DNA from: Candidatus Bathyarchaeum sp.
GTDB taxonomy: Archaea > Thermoproteota > Bathyarchaeia > Bathyarchaeales > Bathyarchaeaceae
NCBI GenBank assembly: GCA_026014565.1
Contig: JAOZIB010000002.1
Span: 19,840-83,839 of the forward strand
DNA length: 64,000 nucleotides
Direction of reading: 5' to 3'
Translations under genes and position numbers: made by a program
Shown here: piece by piece, positions 24,358-29,884 of the stretch
Numbering within the stretch: position 1 is the first letter of the stretch
Layout of the letters: every line of letters starts with the position of its first letter
Notes under the pieces: model-generated
The model's database searches: none
Seen by the model: only the letters and a program-made list of their open reading frames with translations
Told to the model about the DNA's origin: nothing

Positions 24358-26466
24358 TTAGATGTTTGAAGCACATTTACGGCAACTACCAGAATACTCA
24401 GAATCTGCGCTAACTTGTTCTGTGCTTAGTTCTTTGGTTAGTTGTGGCCCAACATACAGCACCTGTTCGCTTTTGCTTCCATACCTGTAAACTGTGGTTC
24501 CCTTACATTTGAGCCGGTAAGCCAGTAAATACACCTGTTTCACGTCATCCACAGTCGCATTGTTTGGAAGATTCACTGTCTTGGAAACAGCATTATCCAC
24601 ATGCTTCTGAAACGCCGCCTGCATCCGAACGTGCCACGACGGAGAAATATCCAATGACGTCACAAAGACTCTTCGTAACTTTTCTGGAATTTGTTTTAGG
24701 TTCTGAACGGATCCCGTTTTCGCAACTTCAAGCATCAAAGTTCTGCTGTAAAAACCCTCTTTTTTTGATAACTCCTCAAAAGTTGGTTGCACTTCCAGCA
24801 ACTTTGAACCATCCATAACGTTACGAATAAAAGCAACAGCAAAAACTGGCTCAATCCCCCCTGAGCAACCTGCAATTATGCTTATGCTTCCTGTTGGAGC
24901 AATAGTAGTTACGGTTGCGTTTCGCATTGTTTTGTAGCCCTTTTCTTCCCAGATGGTGCCCTTAAAGTTAGGAAAAGAACCCCGAACCTCACCAATATTT
25001 ACTGACTGGTTTACTGCTTCGTCTCTGACAAACTTCATCACTTTTTCTGCTAACTCTAACGCTTGTTCAGAGTCGTAAGGAATACCTAACTTGATGAGCA
25101 TGTCTGCAAAACCCATGATGCCTAGGCCAATTTTGCGGTTTTCTCGGGTTATTTTTGCAATTTTTGGTATTGGATATTTGTTAACGTCAATGACGTTGTC
25201 CAAAAAATGAACTCCAACTCTGACAACTCTTCGTAGGTTTTCCCAATCTACTTTTTTGCCTTTGACCATCTTTGACAAGTTAACCGAACCCAAATTACAC
25301 GACTCATACGGCAACAAGGGCTGCTCACCACATGGGTTCGTGCTCAAAATACGTCCAGCTTGAGGAGTTGGGTTGTGCCTGTTTATTTCGTCAATAAACA
25401 CCAGTCCGGGGTCTCCGCTCCGCCAAGCGTTTGATGCAATTAAATCAAATACGTGTCGAGCCTGCAACTTTGTTTCAGTTTTTTTGTTCCGAGGATTAAC
25501 CAGAGCATATTCGCTGTCCTTTTCTACTGCTTGCATGAACTTGTCCGTAACTGCAACTGAAATGTTAAAATTGGTCAAGATGCCTTCTTGGGCTTTCGCT
25601 TCAATAAACTGCAAAATATCAGGATGAGTGACCTCCATTATTGCCATGTTGGCTCCTCGCCTTCTTCCTCCTTGCTTAATCACGTTAGTTGCAGCATCAT
25701 AAATGGTCATAAAAGAAACCGGACCCGAAGCAATCCCCTTGGTTGAGCCTACTATGTCCCCTGCGGGACGAAGTTTAGAAAACGAAAAGCCAGTTCCTCC
25801 TCCTGATTGATGAATAATTGCCATGTGCTTAAGACTAGTGAAAATTCCTTCAATAGAATCTTCAACTGGCAAAACAAAACAAGCAGACAACTGACCCAAC
25901 ACGGTGCCTGCATTCATTAAGGTGGGAGAATTAGGCAAAAACTCGCGTTTTGTCATTACCTGATAAAAAGTTTCTTCAGTTTTTTCTGCATCTGATTTTT
26001 CATCATAAATTAAATCGGCTTTGGCAACTGCTTTTGCCACTCTCCTAAACATTTCACGGGGAGTTTCAATGACTGTGCCTTCTTCATTTTTCATTAGGTA
26101 CCTGTTTTTTAGAACCTGAATGGCGTTAACGCCCAACTTTAAATCGTCAACAACACCGTAAAACTTTTTGAACTCCCGAATTTCAGCTCGTTTCTGACGA
26201 TATAAAATATAAGCCTTAGCAACATCAGCAAACCCATTCTGAATAAGAACCTCCTCAACCAAATCCTGAATGTCCTCCACACTAGGAACTTTTGCCTTAA
26301 ACCGCTCGTTAAGCAACTCAACAACATTACCTGTAAATTTATGTGCTAACTGCATGTTGCCGTTGTTGACCGAATCTAATGCCTTAAAAATTGCTCTAGT
26401 TATCTTAGATTCATCAAAACTAACTGTAATACCATTACGTTTGATGATCTTAGAAACCGTTGTCAA
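24358..26466 (-). CDS. nrdJ: Adenosylcobalamin-dependent (class II) ribonucleotide reductase
   Basis: This enzyme makes deoxyribonucleotides from ribonucleotides. Of 702 residues, 1-90 form an ATP-cone regulatory domain (KIIKRNGITVSFDESKI). The catalytic barrel has LSACFVLPVEDS, HQSGGGTGFSFSKLRP, NPCGEQPLLPYESCNLG (N377, C379) and APTGSISIIAGCSGGIEPVF. The C-terminus ends with a CRKC pair used for re-reduction. These fit the class II, B12-using group, which needs no small radical subunit; none is encoded nearby. I see no clear cobalamin riboswitch upstream. It is monocistronic. Confidence 0.93.
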   Translation of the reverse strand: MTTVSKIIKRNGITVSFDESKITRAIFKALDSVNNGNMQLAHKFTGNVVELLNERFKAKVPSVEDIQDLVEEVLIQNGFADVAKAYILYRQKRAEIREFKKFYGVVDDLKLGVNAIQVLKNRYLMKNEEGTVIETPREMFRRVAKAVAKADLIYDEKSDAEKTEETFYQVMTKREFLPNSPTLMNAGTVLGQLSACFVLPVEDSIEGIFTSLKHMAIIHQSGGGTGFSFSKLRPAGDIVGSTKGIASGPVSFMTIYDAATNVIKQGGRRRGANMAIMEVTHPDILQFIEAKAQEGILTNFNISVAVTDKFMQAVEKDSEYALVNPRNKKTETKLQARHVFDLIASNAWRSGDPGLVFIDEINRHNPTPQAGRILSTNPCGEQPLLPYESCNLGSVNLSKMVKGKKVDWENLRRVVRVGVHFLDNVIDVNKYPIPKIAKITRENRKIGLGIMGFADMLIKLGIPYDSEQALELAEKVMKFVRDEAVNQSVNIGEVRGSFPNFKGTIWEEKGYKTMRNATVTTIAPTGSISIIAGCSGGIEPVFAVAFIRNVMDGSKLLEVQPTFEELSKKEGFYSRTLMLEVAKTGSVQNLKQIPEKLRRVFVTSLDISPSWHVRMQAAFQKHVDNAVSKTVNLPNNATVDDVKQVYLLAYRLKCKGTTVYRYGSKSEQVLYVGPQLTKELSTEQVSADSEYSGSCRKCASNI

Positions 26467-26774
26467 AACTGCGCCCTACTACTATTTGTTTTTGCTTTTA
26501 CTTTAAGATAACTGAGAATTATTTTGTATTTTATTCAGCTCCATACAATGTGGCATAAAAAACCGAACCTGTGCGCATTATAAAATGGGTACGAAAAAAT
26601 GCCAATCAAAATATAAATATGTAAATTAATAACGATTTTAATTAAGAAAAGATGCTGTGTTGTAGTTAAAATTATAAAAAAATCATAATGTTGTGCCTAA
26701 ATGTTCTTGTACGTGAAATAAATCTGAATTCACTATCCCAAAGGTTTTAATAATTATAATAAAGAATATGAATA
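26467..26774. promoter_or_regulatory. AT-rich intergenic region with TATA box for the 26775 gene pair
   Basis: The 308 bases are AT-rich. TTTTAATA at about 26745-26752 lies some 26 bases before the GTG at 26775, suggesting a leaderless start for the small gene. The left part is the promoter region of the ribonucleotide reductase gene on the minus strand. No other feature is seen. Confidence 0.4.
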
Positions 26775-26933
26775 GTGGTTGAAATGCGAACTAAAGAAGA
26801 AACTATAGAGTATTTCACCAAGTTTATCGAAGATTACAAAAAAGATCCAAAAACTCCTGAAAAAATTCGCGCTCGTCACAGAAAATATGGTAAATTAACA
26901 AGGGACGATTTAGCAACAACATTCACGATTTAA
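26775..26933 (+). CDS. Small protein (49-52 residues) paired with papain-like protease gene
   Basis: The frame encodes VVEMRTKEETIEYFTKFIED, then a lysine-rich middle, ending KLTRDDLATTFTI. A GTG at 26775 fits a leaderless start behind the TATA box; an ATG at 26784 is the alternative. It is helical and charged with no recognised motif. Its stop codon is separated by a single base from the ATG of the next gene, so the two are translationally coupled. Size and arrangement resemble an inhibitor, antitoxin or substrate peptide placed before an enzyme, but that is only inference. Confidence 0.55.
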   Translation: MVEMRTKEETIEYFTKFIEDYKKDPKTPEKIRARHRKYGKLTRDDLATTFTI

Positions 26934-26934
26934 A

Positions 26935-28284
26935 ATGACAAATATTGTTAATGTTATTCCGTTTGATTATAACAAACTTCTTAAGATCATGGGCTACAGT
27001 CCACAAGCAGGTTACATCATACGCTATCTCTCCGACCCGGAATTAGATGCTAAGACAGTAGTCATCGAAGAAAAATACATCGATAGAGATTACTTGTTGG
27101 ATTACCAATCATTTTATTCTCGATCTTTTAATGATGTTCCGCGGATAACTAAACGACTCCATTTTTTTTCAGAAATTTTTTCTTCACGTAAATTCAATAG
27201 AATATTAAAAAATAAAAAAAAGGATTATTTTTCCAAAACTAAATCATATTTGGGCTTCTTAGTATTAAAACCAGTTCAGAATGAAAAAGGGGAAACAATT
27301 ATTGGTCGTACTTTATTGAAACCATATCCAAAGACAAAAGGTCAGATTATTAGACACTATATTGAAGGAAATTATACAATTTCTCTGTGTGGAATTGAGT
27401 TATCAATAAATGCTGCTCCTTTTCAAGTTCAGGATAGGGGTGTTAGTGCTTGTGCAACAATTTCATTGTGGATTGCATTACGTTTAATTAAATTTTTATT
27501 CGATTTTCCAAATCAACATCCATCAAAAATTACTGAATTATCTAATGAACTAGTTAGTGAAGCTCGTGTTTTTCCCCAAGATGGATTAAATCTAGATCAA
27601 ATGTTGAAGTGCATTAAGCTATTAGGTCTTGATGTTGAAGTAATACGTGCATTGGATAGTGATACCGTAACTTCAGCAGTAAAAGCATACACTAATGCTG
27701 GGATTCCTTTAATTGCTGCGCTAAAACTAACTAAAAAACCAGAAGTCATAGAAGAAGAAAAAACTAAAGATGACCATGAACATCACGCTGCAGTTATTGT
27801 TGGGTATCAAACTGATGGTAATGGAAAACTCACTAAACTGTATGTTCATGATGACCAAGTAGGGCCATATAGTAAAGTGGAAGCAAAAAGTAACGATGAT
27901 TTTAGAGAATGGAAAAATGAATGGGTCATGGAACCAACTGATTATTCAAAGTTAGAACTTGAAAAAATTATTGTACCTATCTGTCCAAAAATTAGACTTC
28001 CTTGGTTAACTATTTATGACGGTTATGAAGAAATCTGTGGAAATTTGGACCAAAATGAAAAAGTAGATTTGTATTTATACACTGTTCAAAAGTATAAAAA
28101 TGAATTGTTACAGCGGGATATTAAAGAAAAAACTAAACAACTAAAACGATTTCTTCCTAGATTTATTTGGGTTGAACGATTCAGTGATAAAATAACCGGT
28201 TCTCCAAGAATGGATTATCTGTTTGATGGAACTGAGGTCTACTCGGTAGTAAATCAAAATTTGACTCCAGTAATTTATGAATAA
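26935..28284 (+). CDS. Papain-like (C39-type fold) cysteine peptidase domain protein
   Basis: 449 residues. A central cysteine-protease core is suggested by Q165/Q167 and C173 in QVQDRGVSACATIS, then H284 in EHHAAVIVGY and D306/D307 in YVHDDQVGPY. This is the Gln-Cys-His-Asp order of papain-like and C39-like peptidases. The N-terminal 150 residues (LKIMGYSPQAGYIIRYL, then FSSRKFNRILKNKKKDYF) and the C-terminal 120 residues are not recognised. No signal peptide or membrane helix is seen, so it is cytoplasmic. Base composition is AT-rich relative to the histidine operon. It may cleave a partner protein or peptide; the coupled small upstream gene is the obvious candidate. Confidence 0.65.
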   Translation: MTNIVNVIPFDYNKLLKIMGYSPQAGYIIRYLSDPELDAKTVVIEEKYIDRDYLLDYQSFYSRSFNDVPRITKRLHFFSEIFSSRKFNRILKNKKKDYFSKTKSYLGFLVLKPVQNEKGETIIGRTLLKPYPKTKGQIIRHYIEGNYTISLCGIELSINAAPFQVQDRGVSACATISLWIALRLIKFLFDFPNQHPSKITELSNELVSEARVFPQDGLNLDQMLKCIKLLGLDVEVIRALDSDTVTSAVKAYTNAGIPLIAALKLTKKPEVIEEEKTKDDHEHHAAVIVGYQTDGNGKLTKLYVHDDQVGPYSKVEAKSNDDFREWKNEWVMEPTDYSKLELEKIIVPICPKIRLPWLTIYDGYEEICGNLDQNEKVDLYLYTVQKYKNELLQRDIKEKTKQLKRFLPRFIWVERFSDKITGSPRMDYLFDGTEVYSVVNQNLTPVIYE

Positions 28285-28409
28285 GTTTTACAATACTCGG
28301 AATCGTAAATGATGATAACAGCAGAAAAAATTAGGTTAATTTAACGAATTGACTGAAATTTGTGAATTCTGAGAAATGAAACATCAAAATTAGAATAAAA
28401 AAAATAACG

Positions 28410-28435
28410 AAAAGGGGGAGAAAATTCCCTTTTTT
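28410..28435. terminator. Bidirectional hairpin terminator
   Basis: AAAAGGG and CCCTTTT pair around a 10-base loop, with TTTTTT on the plus strand. It lies between the convergent protease gene and trpB2. Confidence 0.6.
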
Positions 28436-28444
28436 GTTGGTTGT

Positions 28445-29836
28445 TTATGCGATGTTGCTTAGGTCGTCGTTGAGCCATGGGTATAGGGCTTTGAGTTTTT
28501 TCATGGCTGCGTTGACTTTTTCTTGTGGATACTCGTATGGGAGCATGTTGCCGTGGTTGAAGTCGTCGTAGGCTTTCATGTCAAAGTGTCCGTGACCACA
28601 CAACAAGAACACTAGGGTTTTTTCTTCACCAGTTTCTTTGCATTTAAGCGCTTCATCGATTGTAGCTTTGATTGCATGAGAAGGCTCTGGAGCCGAAATG
28701 ATTCCTTCGGTTTTAGCGAACAGGCTTGCTGCTTCAAAAGCTTGTAGTTGGTTGTATGCGCGGGATGAAACTTCACCTTCTTCTTTCATCAAACTGACGG
28801 TTGGTGCCATTCCGTGATACCTGAGTCCACCAGCGTGAATTGGAGCAGGAATAAACGTGTGACCAACTGTATGCATTTTAACCAAGGGTATGATTTTTGC
28901 AGTGTCGCCGTGGTCGTAGGTGTAGTATCCTCGGGTTACTTTTGGACATGCAGCAGACTCAACTGCGATGAATTCTGTTTGTTTGGGGGCTTTGCCTTTT
29001 ACTTTGTCGTAGTAGAAGGGCCAGTAGATTCCTGAGAAGCTGCTTCCGCCTCCGATGCATCCGATAATTTGGTCGGGGTAGTCTTCTACCATTGCTAACT
29101 GTTTTTGGGTTTCCAGACCAATAACCGTCTGGTGCAACAAAACGTGATTAAGAACACTACCGATAGTGTACTTGACGTTATCAGTTGTCAAAGCTTCTTC
29201 TACGGCTTCGCTGATAGCAATTCCAAGACTGCCTGTGCTTTCGGGGTCTGACTCTAAAACTGCTCTGCCTGCTTTAGTTCGGTTAGTTGGACTGGGGAAA
29301 ACTTCTGCGCCCCATGTTTCTATCATGCTTTTTCGGTAAGGTTTTTGGTGATAGCTTGCGGCGACCATGTAAACTGTAGCTTTTACGCCGAAGTATTGGG
29401 CACTAAAGGACAGTGCAGATCCCCATTGGCCTGCACCGGTTTCTGTGGTTACTCTTTCTAATCCATCTTTTACTGCGTAGTATGTCTGAGCAACAGCTGT
29501 GTTTGTTTTGTGGCTGCCTGAAGGGCTAACTCCTTCGTATTTGTAGTAAATTTTAGCTGGAGTTTTCAAGGCTTTTTCTAGGTTTGTTGCCCTGAATAAT
29601 GGGCTGGGTCTCCAAATGCGAAGAGCGTCCTGAACTGGCTCAGGGATGTCGATCCAGCGTTCTGTGCTGTATTCTTGTTTGAGGCATTCACTTGGGAACA
29701 GGGGAGGTGGCAGTTTAACTGGCTCGCGGGTTCCGGGGTGAATCATGGGAGGCAATTCTTTGGGAAGATCGGGCAAAATGTTATACCATTGTTTTGGCAT
29801 TTCATTTTCGTCTAGCAAGATTTTTTTCATTGTCAT
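28445..29836 (-). CDS. trpB2: Tryptophan synthase beta chain, TrpB2 type
   Basis: PLP enzyme that joins indole and serine to make tryptophan. About 463 residues, longer than TrpB1 because of the N-terminal extension [17 protein letters not shown] that marks TrpB2. The PLP lysine lies in [11 protein letters not shown], the phosphate loop is [14 protein letters not shown], and ETGAGQWG is conserved. TrpB2 often works without TrpA, or uses free indole; no trpA is nearby. Several starts are possible (29830, 29836 or a GTG at 29845). I take 29836 because GTGA precedes it. It is divergent from an HTH-ACT regulator. Confidence 0.93.
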
Positions 29837-29884
29837 GAATTTCACTTTCTAAGTTGAAGAATTAACCTTTTTTACCCTGAAGAG

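Follow-up and report, generated by a model that had tools for sequence, protein, structure and literature searches.

What does a small open reading frame (ORF) do when it stands a single base ahead of the gene for a predicted cysteine peptidase? The question was raised by a gene pair on the plus strand of the window, i.e. the whole 64,000-nucleotide stretch of Candidatus Bathyarchaeum DNA analyzed here, which comes from a genome that the archaeal small-subunit rRNA model matches over its full length (1514.6 bits; as this model also matches bacterial controls, the match supports an archaeal origin without proving it). The small ORF occupies positions 26775..26933 (GTG start, 52 residues; an alternative ATG start at 26784 would give 49 residues), and the large ORF, which opens with ATG and encodes 449 residues, occupies positions 26935..28284. 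The ORF check confirmed the arrangement that the first-pass annotation had described for the two genes, with one base (A, 26934) separating the stop of the small ORF from the start of the large one.

Upstream of the pair, a TATA-like AT stretch, TTTTAATAATTATAATAAA, was located on the plus strand at 26745..26763, with a spacing compatible with leaderless starts at either 26775 or 26784. The TATA box proposed in the first-pass annotation is thus present as an AT stretch at a plausible distance, but it carries little weight as promoter evidence since the local DNA is only ~31% GC. The same annotation had described the pair as an isolated unit with its own terminator. The pair is indeed isolated in the window genome; however, the hairpin at ~28408-28433 lies ~125 nt beyond the peptidase stop, at the 3' end of the convergent trpB gene, and a hairpin like it occupies the corresponding position in a same-genus genome without the pair. 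The hairpin is therefore at least as much a part of trpB and is probably not the pair's own.

The two genes are the content of a variable cargo segment (26507..28415), delimited by blastn of the flanks and by the ORFs, between two conserved sides: that of a ribonucleotide reductase gene (24358-26466) and that of a trpB-type gene (28445-29845). Both of these genes are on the minus strand, and their names were assigned by eye on the basis of the translations. In three genomes of the same genus (L054, L055, and L056), the flanks are collinear with those of the window up to 26506 and again from 28416, with blastn identities of ~82% and 88%, and they enclose another gene, AT-rich and 205 codons long (e.g. 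L055:4511-5128). The product of this gene contains an NYN nuclease domain (E 3.9e-13) and also matches the PADLOC NYN profile. Since an NYN gene takes the place of the pair at the same spot, the site exchanges cargo. The GC content is 0.32 in the module vs 0.396 in the window, and no long flanking repeats marking an insertion were seen.

Fold and active site of the large protein

The AlphaFold2 model of the window peptidase, which was built from seven sequences, reached a mean pLDDT of 80.1 and a pTM of 0.83, with pLDDT values below 50 in the active-site loop (residues 170-174). Structural comparison with Foldseek and VIA-align superposed residues ~136-352 of this model on papain-fold peptidases. 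The best match was staphopain C (VIA Z 14.4, rmsd 2.9 over 165 residues; Foldseek E 3.9e-5 to staphopains), and the other VIA matches included the staphopain-staphostatin complex (Z 14.1), the C39 domain of PCAT with its leader peptide (6mpz, Z 11.4), UfSP2 (Z 11.3), and 9l5u (Z 9.3); a row absent from the VIA-align results was not counted as evidence. The scores of many papain-like families differ by no more than a few Z units, and these matches therefore show the fold, not the family.

Pfam Peptidase_C39_2 (PF13529) matched the catalytic region of the window peptidase with 20.2 bits (E 9.3e-4), below its cut-off of 24 bits, which was exceeded by L005 alone (24.7 bits) among eight relatives and by L035 alone (26.0 bits) among four distant relatives. 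The window peptidase had no above-cut-off match in Pfam, NCBIfam, PADLOC, or PDB sequences. In PADLOC-DB 2.0.0, no profile matched the peptidases of the window, L003, L005, L006, L009, and L014, while the small proteins of the window and of L015 returned just a chance-level Csm2 match (E 0.021). The PHROGs profile search produced weak matches only, and Foldseek against viral models produced generic papain-like matches only. As the model and the active-site conservation show, the large protein has the papain fold of a C39/staphopain-like cysteine peptidase, with predicted peptidase activity. No export signal was seen in the window peptidase by eye, and it is likely to be cytosolic.

The active site is conserved across the family. 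In the 18-row alignment A4, the presumed oxyanion-hole Gln166 (codon 27430..27432), the presumed nucleophile Cys173 (27451..27453), and the presumed catalytic His284 (27784..27786) are each kept in 17 rows, and Asp306 (27850..27852), the presumed third catalytic residue, is invariant, as is the adjacent Asp307 (both codons, 27850-27855, plus strand as the others). The four distant relatives L033-L036 retain D306 while position 307 varies (HDE/HDV), which makes D306 the likelier catalytic Asp. The residue order Gln, Cys, His, Asp is that of papain-like (clan CA) peptidases, and these residues are conserved family features, not chance. The first-pass annotation had read a Gln-Cys-His-Asp core from the window (C173, H284, and D306/D307), and these positions proved correct, with Gln166 as the Gln. 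It had also named in advance two features of the homologs on which its proposal would stand or fall, the Cys/His pair and the linkage of the small gene; the first of these is kept as a rule (17/18).

In the few comparisons made, the parts flanking the papain region have no recognized fold. In the model, residues ~40-130 and 337-431 display the same strand-helix-strand-helix-strand-strand order on either side of the papain region, and the flanks may be the two halves of an internal duplication that the peptidase interrupts. The peptidases of L004, L005, L008, L009, L014, and L015 carry an extra C-terminal region of ~200 residues that has no library name and contains the motifs GHP.LTG..PARI.GE and SGRYS; this region is possibly a sensing or targeting domain.

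The small partner protein and the intergenic hairpin

Linkage, the second feature named in advance, is nearly complete. A co-directional ORF of 51-81 residues stands directly before the peptidase gene in 22 of the 23 core-family loci, the sole exception being L027, where no such ORF occurs in the ~400 nt upstream. The core-family total was counted by hand and excludes fragments (L030, L031, and L032) and distant relatives (L028, L029, and L033-L036); repeats of L009, L008, and L018 (L016, L017, L038, L041, and L042) and of known copies (L002, L007, L010-L012, L019, and L037) were also recognized. In the six plasmid and E. coli loci, the small ORF is already annotated as a gene. With this linkage the small gene is real, although some close pairs give it a dN/dS only weakly below 1. 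An adjacent small gene with conserved linkage is a trait that the family shares with pairs of the staphopain-staphostatin type. The enzyme with a dedicated inhibitor, antitoxin, or substrate that had been proposed from the window alone thus finds partial support in the linkage and in the Cys/His conservation, with all three of these roles for the partner putative.

The small proteins are diverse in sequence except at their free C-terminus, where F/Y/M/V/I/A/C is followed by T/S and then by a terminal I/V/L-COOH in 18 of 22 (14 of 18 without the near-duplicates L013, L015, L026, and L043, which are included in the 22). The same pattern ends 3 of 127 background ORFs, i.e. ORFs of at least 150 residues drawn from the window plus seven loci, and the binomial probability of 13 tails in 17 at this background rate is 1.6e-18. 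Typical ends are LTEEDMRKVFTI, LSPEDLLTRFTI, FLSRSYSL, and, in the window, LATTFTI, with which the C-terminal tail LTRDDLATTFTI of the window partner closes. Many archaeal small proteins also have a common D-P motif upstream of the tail. Exceptions are L014 (SYEA), L004 (RYNR), L003 (RARL), and L006 (FALR), and as L003, L004, and L006 combine these other tails with an intact Gln/Cys/His, the tail rule is not strict.

Beyond the core family, L033-L036 have an upstream ORF of 58-76 residues with different ends, of which three out of four share a consensus about GE.LFEESRLL; the pairing with a small protein may therefore be wider than the core family. No partner was seen for the distant L028 and L029. 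Separately, the small protein of L009 (L009:5742-5915) has weak matches to phrog_20797 and phrog_29652, hinting at free-standing phage relatives.

We propose that the product of the first gene is an inhibitory partner of about 50-80 residues, probably helical, with a free conserved tail of the form hydrophobic-Thr/Ser-Ile/Val/Leu. Made first and in excess, it would dock on the peptidase, and its C-terminal tail would occupy the substrate cleft in the manner of a bound product and keep the enzyme off. A fused partner-peptidase model, in which the L008 chain was read through from one gene into the other, depicted the partner as helices plus a tail, with a pLDDT of 64.7 overall and below 50 in residues 35-70 (tail and linker); given this low tail confidence, it demonstrates no complex, and a placement of the tail in the cleft derived from it was dropped.

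Alternatively, the small protein might be a dedicated substrate or activator, which the peptidase would bind through helix and tail and then cut or trim, by analogy with C39 peptidases and the helical leader peptides that they cleave, with the product or the binding itself acting as a signal or effector. The presence of a C39 peptidase with a leader peptide among the best structural matches (6mpz) speaks for such a relationship, as do the ability of a conserved C-terminus to serve as a recognition tag and the helical partner body in the weak fused model. However, inspection of the DNA beside the pair revealed neither a transporter nor a modifying enzyme nor an export signal, the alignment contains no conserved Gly-Gly-like site, and the sole conserved stretch is the extreme C-terminus, so a cut there would leave little. 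We regard a substrate or activator role as rather unlikely. A narrower reading of the small protein as a RiPP precursor was dropped, as modifying enzyme and transporter are missing and the conserved part is the C-terminal end.

Natural variants offer a further view of the proposed inhibitory partner. In L014 (L014:7763-10052, E. coli W2-5), both the Cys and the His are replaced by Tyr and the partner tail is changed, and yet the ORF of 682 residues is open, as in a natural pseudo-peptidase; DNA of this type occurs in 19 of 5426 E. coli genomes at 99.8-100% identity (L014 itself was translated). Its preservation points either to a noncatalytic mode of action in some members or to decay of the L014 type. 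In L027, residue 166 is Ser and the partner gene is missing, with the Cys and His present; in L013, a further copy from ANME-2, the partner gene is intact next to a peptidase broken by a stop and a foreign segment. The association of a damaged peptidase with an altered, absent, or lone partner in these three loci is consistent with a partner of importance to a functional active site.

The distance between the two genes differs among the loci. Archaeal loci have gaps of 1-24 nt or slightly overlapping genes, and in phage-type contigs the gap is 12 nt (L018), 4 nt (L039/L043), or 3 nt (L040), while eight other bacterial-type loci have gaps of 46-84 nt. Seven of these eight gaps longer than 40 nt (L003, L004, L005, L008, L009, L014, and L015, but not L006) contain a terminator-like hairpin, defined as a perfect stem of at least 6 pairs followed by a T-run, whereas none of 16 control gaps between co-directional genes of the same loci did (usable control gaps came from L003, L004, L014, and L015). 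The folding energy was clearly below that of shuffles in six of the seven hairpin gaps (z -2.6 to -5.3), with a z of -1.3 for L003. No terminator was found between the genes in the archaeal copies. As the hairpin follows the small gene, most transcripts from an upstream promoter should end there, which would leave the partner in excess. In bacteria, this intrinsic terminator would keep protease transcripts scarcer than partner transcripts, and in archaea and some phage-type contigs, the close or slightly overlapping genes would be translated together.

The same hairpin invites another reading, in which the small ORF would be a regulatory leader and ribosome behavior at its conserved end would govern the terminator or the coupled start. 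The conserved residues directly precede the stop, and in the seven gaps the hairpin and T-run begin ~13-30 nt past it, both in favor of such a leader. Nevertheless, the tail is also kept in archaea and in L018, L039, and L040, where there is no terminator and the genes are 1-24 nt apart or overlap; moreover, the stop codons differ (TAA, TAG, and TGA), and 50-80 residues is long for a leader. A purely regulatory ORF thus appears improbable.

Distribution, surroundings and candidate role

In the window's own phylum, the module was found in the window genome only (1 of 61 relatives and 1 of 300 genomes). A relative at 43% identity was identified in an ANME-2 genome record, and in the phylum of that archaeon 18 of 392 genomes had matches at E <= 0.001, several of them distant or fragmentary. 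In a phylogenetic tree, for which long-branch warnings concerned L003 and L006, the window falls within a clade of nine archaeal rows (support 100/99), separate from the bacterial and phage rows. Relatives were also found in four PLSDB plasmid records, in a handful of IMG/VR contigs, and in 20 of 5426 complete E. coli genomes, 19 of the L014 type and one of an intact L015 type. A count of 1445/5426 from a distant search was rejected, as its query contained phage flank and cleaner queries give the 20 genomes. A phage collection held no match for either of two peptidases or for one small protein, and the evidence for phage copies therefore rests on the IMG/VR contigs.

The surroundings of the bacterial and phage copies are rich in mobile and defense genes. 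L009 is flanked by two P2-type genes, gpA (Pfam E 4.7e-127) and portal (2.4e-15), and passages of Rousset et al. (PMC9122126) describe this gpA-portal (gpA-gpQ) site of P2 as a defense hotspot. L039 lies between a terminase gene and a lambda-type portal gene; L003 adjoins caspase and caspase-helicase genes and L004 a TrlF-family ATPase gene; L014 belongs to a tRNA-Pro integrase island with an ABC-three-component system, and L015 to an island with antirestriction and toxin-antitoxin genes. Two of the four plasmid copies (L005:2758-5106 and L006:6551-8723) adjoin multiubiquitin/ThiF gene sets in different orientations. Neighbors were inspected in five archaeal loci: the sole clear defense gene, for a type IIG restriction enzyme, lies in one of them, a mobile-element-type Prim-Pol gene in another, and nothing comparable in the rest. 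A linked two-gene unit with a patchy, mobile distribution is a trait of toxin-antitoxin and abortive-infection systems. The suggestion in the first-pass annotation that the papain-like pair is possibly defense-related is supported by the surroundings of its bacterial and phage copies, from which a role in defense itself would be an extrapolation.

The plasmid neighbors, together with the UfSP2 and ZUFSP deconjugases among the structural matches (Z about 10-11), would also suit a partner that serves as a helical modifier similar to ubiquitin or Pup, is recognized through its C-terminus, and would be removed from targets by the peptidase. Yet the module contains no ligase, the multiubiquitin genes run in the opposite direction in L006 and are more than 500 nt away in L005, other copies have none, and middling Z values are common to many papain-like families; we consider a modifier and its deconjugase highly improbable. 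An intracellular peptidase of an everyday kind, which would have a chaperone-like subunit, serve metabolism or processing, and have spread on islands by chance, would agree with the archaeal copies, often placed among housekeeping genes (the window and L058), and with the fact that no phenotype is known. The patchy presence in both archaeal phyla (1/300 and 18/392), the AT-rich DNA, and the defense or phage-hotspot surroundings in bacteria argue against it, and we consider such a housekeeping function improbable, though less so than the deconjugase.

The reading that we favor, at about even confidence, is a mobile module in which a cytosolic papain-fold peptidase is inhibited by the tail of its upstream partner and has a toxin-antitoxin-like or abortive-infection role. 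Infection would stop partner synthesis or displace the partner, and the freed peptidase would cut host or viral proteins, so that the infection would fail. The fully specified version, an immune module of archaea, bacteria, and phages with a suicide peptidase that is shut by tail insertion, set in dosage by a terminator, and freed by a viral block of expression, is put forward more tentatively and is somewhat likelier to be wrong than right. Counting against the favored reading are L014, L003, L004, L006, L027, the hairpin-less archaeal copies, the poor fused model, the single clear defense gene among the five archaeal loci, and the dN/dS of the small gene.

Comparison with known systems

In ToxIN (type III), a terminator lies between the antitoxin part and the toxin gene. 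Like ToxIN-type modules, the pair described here consists of two genes with the partner first, is mobile, and occurs in defense islands and phage hotspots; unlike in ToxIN, a predicted peptidase, not a nuclease, acts as effector, the partner is a protein, and toxicity would be expected by analogy only. The Tox-PL and Tox-PLC39 polymorphic toxins likewise use a papain-like fold in conflict, with a neutralizing protein (passages of PMC3482391), and their fold is represented among our matches (9l5u, Z 9.3). In contrast to those toxins, neither delivery nor repeat domains were seen here, nor were any secretion genes, and the partner precedes the enzyme. The Peptidase_C39_2 and PCAT/ComA C39 domains are related by sub-threshold-to-marginal profile matches and by fold (Z about 10-11), whereas our module has no ABC transporter and possesses unrecognized N- and C-terminal parts and a partner gene.

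SpeB-Spi, staphopain-staphostatin, and Bfp-Bfi are papain-like proteases with co-transcribed neighboring inhibitor genes, and some Bfp genes are on mobile elements (passages of PMC2873492). The SpeB, staphopain, and Bfp proteases are exported (in part from passages of PMC2873492, in part as general background). Our pair resembles staphopain-staphostatin (C47), SpeB-Spi, and Bfp-Bfi (both C10) in combining a papain fold with a small neighbor gene. It differs from their loci in that the partner gene precedes the enzyme and no export signal was seen by eye, and from staphostatin, Spi, and Bfi, which are larger and lipocalin-like or propeptide-like, in that the partner has 50-80 residues and a conserved free C-terminus.

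In the open-access literature searched, with few preprints and with passages of PMC9122126, PMC7159879, PMC2873492, and PMC3482391, we found no description of the module and no report of activity, toxicity, inhibition, or phage protection for it. In outline, a peptidase with a dedicated neighbor protein in the mobile defense gene pool is of a known kind; the peptidase family, the partner with its conserved tail, the terminator arrangement, and the spread over both domains appear undescribed. If our reading is true, a proteolytic, protein-inhibited effector module found in both domains and in a phage defense hotspot would be added to prokaryotic immunity, with a three-residue tail as a sharp handle on its mechanism and E. 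coli copies in which it is directly testable.
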